From a virus: 29,465 nucleotides of DNA. A model generated the notes under the pieces. That model did no database searches. It was not told where the DNA came from and was given only the letters and a program-made list of their open reading frames with translations. The DNA lies in IMG/VR virus record IMGVR_UViG_3300017760_003428, positions 1 to 29,465 of that record. One strand, 5' to 3'. This document shows, in pieces, positions 4,960-21,961 of this stretch (positions are counted from its first letter, which is position 1; each line of letters begins with the position of its first letter). The translations under genes were made by a program, and so were the position numbers.

Positions 4960-4984
4960 CACAGACTGAAAGGCATTGCCATAT

Positions 4985-5200
4985 ATGGCTTGGACAAAAG
5001 AAACTTTAATTGATAGCATGCTCCGGAGGAAGGGGCAAGCGCTTAAGACTGAAAAGTCTTTATTAAAGATACGACTCAAGAAGGGCTACATTACCCAGCA
5101 AGAGTACAATGAGATTATTGAAGAGACAAAAGAATATTATAAAGAGTGGAAAGACTTCAAAGAACCTAAAAAACAACAACGAAGACAAGGATTAAGATAA
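4985..5200 (+). CDS. hypothetical coiled, Lys/Glu-rich protein (71 aa)
   Basis: Not recognised. ATG at 4985 is preferred; an in-frame TTG at 4976 is the alternative, and AAAGG at 4969-4973 fits the ATG better. The product is almost entirely charged helix (Lys, Glu, Arg, Gln) and ends in a basic tail (KKQQRRQGLR), compatible with a small coiled coil or nucleic-acid contact. Its stop overlaps the next start (TAATG). Confidence 0.65.
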   Translation: MAWTKETLIDSMLRRKGQALKTEKSLLKIRLKKGYITQQEYNEIIEETKEYYKEWKDFKEPKKQQRRQGLR

Positions 5201-20159: not shown

Positions 20160-20236
20160 TGGGGTGAGGTCCTACAGGAAAGGACACCGGGTTGTTACCC
20201 CGGAGGTTGCTGGTTCAAGTCCAGCCGCCCCAGCCA
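20160..20236 (+). tRNA. tRNA-Asn (GTT)
   Basis: 77 bases with the CCA encoded. Acceptor TGGGGTG pairs with CGCCCCA (one G-U), D stem GTCC/GGAC, anticodon stem CCGGG/CCCGG with loop TTGTTAC (anticodon GTT), T stem GCTGG/CCAGC with TTCAAGT. Discriminator G, as expected for Asn. Confidence 0.95.
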
Positions 20237-20247
20237 TCTTAGTCTAC

Positions 20248-20319
20248 GGTCCTATCGTCTAGCGGTCAGGATGCCGCCCTTTCACGGCGGAGACAGGGGT
20301 TCAATTCCCCTTAGGACTA
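20248..20319 (+). tRNA. tRNA-Glu (TTC)
   Basis: 72 bases without an encoded CCA. Acceptor GGTCCTA pairs with TAGGACT (first pair G-U), anticodon stem CCGCC/GGCGG with loop CTTTCAC (anticodon TTC), T stem AGGGG/CCCCT with TTCAATT. The D arm and anticodon arm closely follow bacterial tRNA-Glu. It is 11 bases behind tRNA-Asn and probably co-transcribed. Confidence 0.93.
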
Positions 20320-20347
20320 CATGTTAACTTTGTCTAGGAGACATTAT

Positions 20348-21565: not shown

Positions 21566-21594
21566 GTGCAAGTTATGTGTCGCTATGGTATAAT
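21566..21594 (+). promoter_or_regulatory. GTGCAA-family promoter
   Basis: GCGCGTGCAA with GTGCAA at 21566-21571, 17 bp ending TGG, TATAAT (21589-21594): the best match to the family consensus. Confidence 0.92.
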
Positions 21595-21605
21595 GTACAT
21601 GTATT

Positions 21606-21716
21606 GGAGGTTGAGGCTTACACTGCTCGCACACACTGCTCGCGCATTAAGTTGCCGTCTGGAGCCGAAAGGCTAGGTGTCGTCTGGAGTCTTAAGACTA
21701 GGTAATCTCAACTTCC
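21606..21716 (+). ncRNA. structured 5' leader with two covarying tandem hairpins
   Basis: Begins a few bases after the expected transcription start. A 10-bp helix GGAGGTTGAG (21606-21615) with CTCAACTTCC (21707-21716, one G-U) closes the leader. Inside are a direct repeat CACTGCTCGC (twice, near 21620 and 21634) and a 25-base unit in tandem (21656-21680, 21681-21705). Unit 1 has CTGGAGCC-GAAA-GGCTAG, unit 2 CTGGAGTC-TTAA-GACTAG: the stem changes CC/GG to TC/GA together, so pairing is kept. The leader ends before the ribosome-binding site of 21743; a riboswitch or protein-binding leader is plausible. Confidence 0.65.
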
Positions 21717-21742
21717 TCTACACATACATTATAGGAGTTCTT

Positions 21743-21961
21743 ATGAACATTGGTAATCTCGTCACTTTCAATCATCTTCCTACCCCCAACACACCGGGAG
21801 CTCCGAGCTCTGCTCAGCCCGGTGTAGGAACAGTCGTCAAGGCACGTCACGAAGATGATGTTGTTTTTAAGGGTGATATGTGGTGTGACGTTCTTTGGCC
21901 ATGTGGTCAGGTGACCAAGTGTTTCAAGAAAGATCTTAGTACTATTGAAAGGGTCAAGTAG
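21743..21961 (+). CDS. SH3-like mini-protein (72 aa)
   Basis: ATG 21743 has AGGAG before it; upstream in-frame starts fall in the structured leader. Begins MNIGNLVTFN, the family pattern, with a Pro/Ser-rich loop inserted (PNTPGAPSSAQPG), then GTVVKARHEDDVVF and CDVLWPCGQVTK. Function unknown. Confidence 0.75.
   Translation: MNIGNLVTFNHLPTPNTPGAPSSAQPGVGTVVKARHEDDVVFKGDMWCDVLWPCGQVTKCFKKDLSTIERVK

Follow-up and report, generated by a model that had tools for sequence, protein, structure and literature searches.

Two nested copies of a conserved three-way-junction module in an uncultured phage: a candidate structured noncoding RNA

Introduction

The window, as the whole 29,465-base IMG/VR virus record analysed here is called, carries a promoter-like site, GTGCAA-N17-TATAAT with an extended -10 TG (21566-21594, plus strand), from whose -10 box it is 148 nt to the gene at 21743, a distance mostly occupied by one predicted RNA structure (21606-21716). 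An earlier note on this DNA had read the structure as a riboswitch-like leader of tandem hairpins with two binding sites, which the products of the genes at 21743 and 21963 might occupy. The locus poses a simple question: is this RNA a control for the gene behind it, or is it a product in its own right? The promoter named in that note matches exactly and lies directly upstream of the element, its -10 box ending 25 nt before the core AC; the pattern GTGCAA-N17-TATNNT has seven exact matches in the window, where chance alone would give 0.08. The downstream gene (21743-21961, plus strand), which encodes a 72-aa protein, is treated below as a neighbour and is not judged part of the element.

Two modules in one leader

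The coordinates, the 10-bp closing helix and the repeats that had been described all hold in the sequence. The closing helix joins GGAGGUUGAG (21606-21615) to CUCAACUUCC (21707-21716) through ten pairs, one of them G-U, and extends inward through G21616-U21706, a bulged C21617 and UUAC/GUAA (21618-21621 with 21702-21705). The resulting outer P1, on the plus strand like the parts listed below, thus has its 5' strand at 21606-21621 (21606-21616 and 21618-21621) and its 3' strand at 21702-21716. Within it lie two kinds of repeat, the 25-nt tandem units (21650-21674 and 21675-21699, 76% identity) and a 13-nt direct repeat (21620-21632 and 21633-21645, 92% identity). Between the stems of the tandem units, AGCC/GGCT and AGTC/GACT, exactly one pair differs, on both sides (C-G to T-A). 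This single compensatory pair had been taken as direct support for RNA structure; it is thin within the window alone, and the claim is carried instead by the homologues described below.

Both repeat types are accounted for together if a single RNA module occurs twice, one copy sitting inside an arm of the other, with the CACTGCTCGC repeats as the 5' halves and the 25-base hairpin units as the 3' halves. The outer module combines the first ACUGCUCGC (21622-21630), identical to the ACUGYUCGC consensus of 12 homologues, with the last CGUCUGG-AGUC/GACU-AG (21681-21701), that is, the conserved junction CGUCUGG (21681-21687), the P3 hairpin AGUC-UUAA-GACU (21688-21699), whose stem pairs, and the AG linker (21700-21701). 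The inner module combines the second ACUGCUCGC (21635-21643), which likewise matches the consensus, with the first CGUCUGG-AGCC/GGCU-AG (21656-21676), comprising the conserved CGUCUGG (21656-21662), the P3 hairpin AGCC-GAAA-GGCU (21663-21674) and the AG linker (21675-21676); between the two segments stands the P2 hairpin GCA-UUAAGU-UGC (21644-21655), of 3 bp, where the homologues have a helix that covaries. The helix ACAC/GUGU (21631-21634 with 21677-21680) serves as outer P2 and inner P1 at once, and both junction sets are intact in both modules. The tandem units are thus present but are not the functional unit, each being only the 3' part of a module, and the two proposed sites survive as two complete modules in series, not as tandem hairpins.

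The nested fold has a calculated energy of -34.9 kcal/mol, 1.6 kcal/mol above the optimum of -36.5, and shuffled versions of the 137-nt leader fold just as well (z = -0.06), so that folding energy lends the window no support. Coding repeats were rejected as a source of the pattern because units of 25 and 13 nt are not multiples of three, and an inserted terminator because no U-run follows the closing helix. A 27-nt inverted repeat, 81% complementary (21589-21615 and 21707-21733), prolongs outer P1 outward over the -10 box, and the minus strand thus carries a second TATAATG at 21733-21727.

Homologues in other phages

Pattern scans of IMG/VR found the module in 12 other phage contigs, one of which (L040) has a second, degenerate copy. 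When the hairpin and its flanks, GTCTGGAGNCNNNAGNCTAGGT, served as the pattern, five contigs matched, of which L013 was dropped; all four real matches also have the upstream ACACTGYTCGC and a hairpin between, neither of which the scan had demanded. A second scan, for both conserved segments, matched 36 contigs, of which 12 were kept and 24 dropped as chance: the 12 form all three helices and the other 24 cannot, at least 10 of the 12 tested pairs (P1, P2 and P3 summed) being formed in the former and at most 8 in the latter. A third scan, which demanded neither P3 nor AGGT, returned 28 contigs, the same 12 and 16 judged by reading to be chance, and P3 and AGGT were present in all 12 real matches. 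The scans recovered segments that they had not demanded, so the conservation of the junctions exceeds what the search imposed; variants altered at several junction positions at once would be missed by such scans.

A covariance model built from the 12 homologues, with the window excluded, matches the window at 21618-21694 with 54.9 bits (E 1.5e-12). Homologous leaders failing to keep the pairings would have spoken against a structured RNA; none appeared, and the 12 keep P1, P2 and P3 together with the same junctions. The same model finds one locus in each of the 12 element-bearing records besides the window, that of L040 consisting of two adjacent cores.

Beyond these contigs the element was sought in several collections. 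A blastn search with the window leader and four homologous elements gave only short chance matches among 50,697 cultured-phage records, and megablast with 21.5 kb of the window gave none. A strict pattern scan of one genome per bacterial species yielded six matches that all lacked complementary P2 and P3. Under stricter filters, a model search found no copy in Microbacterium phage A3Wally or in ten further phage records that carry a homologous ATPase or metallopeptidase gene (0 of 11). A weak model match occurs in a Granulicella genome (G017:C6:264061-264143; 25 bits, E 0.0096).

Consensus fold and covariation

The module reads, in order, P1 ending in AC, ACUGYUCGC, P2, CGUCUGG, P3, AG, and GU opening the other strand of P1; the AC/GU at the end of P1 is invariant, and so is AG in all 12 homologues, also where the scan did not demand it. 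P3 is mostly AGCC/GGCU, as in the inner module, and is replaced elsewhere by AAUC/GAUU and AACC/GGUU. All three helices, P1 included, covary among the 12 homologues, with two-sided changes in 11 of 17 named pairs. The covariation score is 0.506 against 0.252 +/- 0.026 in shuffles, none of 500 of which reaches the observed value, and 94.1% of cells are paired against at most 50.0% when the partners are slid. The junctions hold 24 invariant columns. Comparison thus establishes the conservation of the element and, as a prediction, its fold: the three-way junction is well supported, and the function is inferred.

RNAalifold recovers these three helices and proposes further CUG/UGG and CG/CG pairs within the junction, which covariation neither backs nor contradicts because the columns are invariant. 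The unconstrained minimum-energy fold takes the model form in 8 of 11 single modules (not in L020, L021 and L048). The two junction sets of L040 lie 58 nt apart; each forms only a poor P3 stem by itself, but a shared P3 can join them. L040 might accordingly be a second double, with its two cores connected via P3 in a permuted arrangement, an uncertain reading; the enforced shared-P3 fold, at -30.9 kcal/mol, lies 9.6 above the optimum of -40.5, and the double is therefore kept only as a lead. Two other homologues (L021, 7869-7899, and L027, 1559-1589) have a P2 that is longer and whose inner sequence, CCUCCCCAUAGGGAA.AAGGUG, is nearly identical in the two; it may be an additional motif.

Genomic setting

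The 13 loci, comprising the window and its 12 homologues, differ in their surroundings. A promoter-like site stands directly upstream in seven (the window, L009, L010, L020, L021, L032 and L040), and a ribosome-binding site with a start codon follows 27-47 nt downstream in eight (all except L009, L010, L032, L043 and L048). Such spacing is as expected for a 5'-UTR element, and dense phage genomes give the same anyway. A MoxR-type ATPase gene ends directly before the element in L012, L051 and L043 (identified by phrog_1297 in L012 and by reading of the sequence in L051 and L043). The element lies 526 nt after the ATPase gene in L020, counted from the end of the open reading frame, 378 nt before it in L011, and at other sites in the remaining contigs. 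Orthologues of the ATPase, 56-65% identical, occur in 7 of 12 element-bearing records, and one of 67% occurs in the record of L018, which has no element; with the shifting site of the element, they mark a single phage lineage in which its position moves. In L032 the element stands behind a tRNA. In L011, a tRNA-like 3' half ending in ACCA (about 1030-1104), not called by ARAGORN, directly precedes the element.

The downstream genes differ from locus to locus; across the records compared, the module has a single locus in each and no constant partner gene. A further promoter separates element and next gene in L010 and L043. An intrinsic terminator lies directly behind the element, within 60 nt, at one of the 13 loci (L048), no dedicated 3' end being visible at the other 12, and terminator-like sites within 300 nt downstream are not commoner (3 of 13 loci) than in random stretches (33 of 260). 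The L048 terminator, on the minus strand at about 4980-5010, is perfect (GGCACAC..GUGUGCC-AUUUUU); it is followed by a promoter (TTGACA-17-TACAAT) and then by a RecA-like gene.

A relative that lacks the element is instructive. The two proteins encoded downstream in the window have a single relative in IMG/VR, contig 3300017720_000057 (L003), where the same promoter precedes a 21743 gene 71% identical to that of the window, with 33 nt from -10 box to start codon and nothing between; a model search of its 26,160-base record found no copy anywhere. The element, being cleanly present or absent between the same promoter and gene, appears to be an accessory of the phage and not a control that the gene behind it needs. 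The suggestion that the 21743 and 21963 products bind the structure is not supported: the proteins do not co-occur with it. L003 has both and no element, and a search of the 12 other element-bearing records gave, for the mini-protein (the 21743 product), one weak partial match and, for the zinc-finger protein, one distant homologue of 33% identity with a stop inside the match.

What the RNA may do

We consider it most plausible, with a probability of roughly 45%, that a structured noncoding RNA is encoded here, of a phage family for which no description was found, the RNA being the working product and its core binding a protein. One locus per record, a shifting position, no partner gene and an invariant core suggest an RNA that is made for its own sake, with a core that binds something; the RNA is thus probably the working product and the junction core a candidate binding site, a protein being the simplest guess for the partner. 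The RNA is predicted to fold into a compact three-way junction of P1, P2 and P3 around the invariant junctions ACUGYUCGC, CGUCUGG and AG, two modules being stacked in series in the window with inner P1 serving as outer P2. It would be transcribed from a promoter of its own or freed from a longer transcript, and the core would bind one protein of phage or host, whether an RNase, a ribosome-associated factor, RNA polymerase or a phage regulator, to which the double version in the window would offer two sites. Counting against a free RNA are the scarcity of dedicated 3' ends and the start codons at 27-47 nt noted above, together with the minimum-energy folds of L020, L021 and L048, which depart from the model, the suboptimal energy of the nested fold and the lack of any co-occurring partner gene.

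Those start codons, and the seven promoters directly upstream, are what a cis-acting leader would be expected to show, that is, a riboswitch or an autoregulatory protein-binding site controlling translation of the next gene. Invariant junction nucleotides framed by variable helices have the look of an aptamer, and a conserved aptamer-like core with covarying helices, which a riboswitch requires, was indeed found. The following genes, however, are unlike each other and show no association with a gene or pathway that would fit a ligand. The element directly follows the ATPase gene in three contigs, in one of which (L043) a separate promoter serves the next gene, and a tRNA in another; the loci share no terminator or hairpin sequestering the ribosome-binding site, that of the window (UAGGAG) lying outside P1 and outside the structure. 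As L003 also manages without the element and the downstream proteins do not travel with it, the riboswitch-like leader of the earlier note is not upheld, and cis control in general is rather unlikely. Independence from the downstream gene and a site directly behind a promoter at 7 of 13 loci would also suit an RNA that binds RNA polymerase in cis and causes processive antitermination or anti-pausing in the manner of the put RNAs of HK022. This is a doubtful proposition: putRNA consists of two stem-loops, which the three-way junction of the element does not reproduce, downstream terminators are no commoner than in random stretches, and in L043 and L048 the element closes a transcription unit, the next promoter lying beyond it.

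Invariant junctions and arms that vary freely, in a small three-way junction, are features typical of nucleolytic ribozymes, and a self-cleaving ribozyme of a new class might trim phage transcripts. Its loci near tRNA genes and between genes would fit, as would the L040 cores if joined in permuted order through P3; the permuted reading lies well above the minimum-energy fold, though, and three members resemble no Rfam ribozyme model even at E up to 10, so that this activity seems improbable. That the element is merely a 5'-end hairpin shielding the mRNA from decay, with no specific partner, is very improbable. P1 does start near the predicted transcript start at seven loci, but six of the 13 have no recognisable promoter upstream, and 24 invariant junction columns are not what a simple hairpin would preserve. 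The preferred reading, an RNA product whose core binds a protein, has a bolder relative in which the RNA would be catalytic or directed at the host machinery, through a self-cleaving core or the capture of host RNA polymerase or ribosome factors, and in which phages would multiply the core by inserting it into the arm of another core. We regard this as unlikely; if the core is catalytic or binds the transcription or translation machinery, the phages would have in it a new means of taking over the host.

Relation to known RNAs

At the gathering threshold, Rfam 15 finds only two tRNAs in the whole window, where tandem tRNA-Asn(gtt) and tRNA-Glu(ttc) genes lie at 20160-20236 and 20248-20320. At a laxer E of up to 10, three members of the family gave two, no and one matches, all far below gathering and plainly chance. 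Tandem hairpins of the guanidine-II or mini-ykkC kind were rejected as there was no Rfam match. Searches of the open-access literature by topic and by motif letters found no description of the element. A catalogue of candidate structured RNAs from human microbiomes reportedly holds thousands (PMC8040213). With neither a credible Rfam match nor a description in that literature, the family is called not found described.

Structured RNAs of phages are a known kind; the nested build is unusual. The putL and putR sites of HK022 are both about 70 nt long and act on terminators 10 kb away, putL lying just downstream of its promoter and putR about 270 nt from the start, and putRNA forms two stem-loops (PMC9378689). 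The element is likewise a phage RNA about 70 nt long that often follows a promoter closely and does not depend on the following gene, but it differs in its three-way junction and its other conserved sequences. The cis-regulatory motifs wcaG, manA and glnA of cyanophages, together with abiF RNA, are phage-borne structured RNAs (PMC12197685). They share with the element the character of conserved structured RNAs of aquatic phages; they are, however, named families, several of them tied to genes, whereas the element matches no Rfam family.

Two further comparisons concern architecture. Tandem-aptamer riboswitches, for example that for glycine, carry their binding module twice within one RNA. The element likewise has its module in duplicate; its copies, however, are nested via a shared helix instead of lying side by side, and it has no expression platform or constant target gene. 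The pRNA of phi29 is, like the element, a phage RNA with a three-way junction. The element has no Rfam match and is not tied to a packaging gene, and its arm loops vary freely, with no obvious loop-loop complementarity.

The comparison adds a conserved single-copy RNA to an uncultured phage lineage with a MoxR-type ATPase and GTGCAA promoters, and the predicted fold is defined well enough for probing, mutation and searching. The nested double module would represent an unusual route to the duplication of an RNA domain. Since both of its cores are kept to the letter while one helix has two roles, it also provides a natural test of which nucleotides matter.

Neighbouring genes

Two observations concern the proteins of these phages. 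PHROG 1314, to which the window contributes a gene at 16-1269 and L009, L012 and L043 contribute members, is labelled HNH endonuclease; Pfam puts the members from L009, L012 and L043 in DUF2201, with a putative metallopeptidase and a VWA-like domain. In L017 (IMGVR 3300008050_000169), many short genes whose products start M-K-V-G-D-L-V follow one another at about 500-2600; they look like an expanded small-protein family akin to the 72-aa protein of the window.
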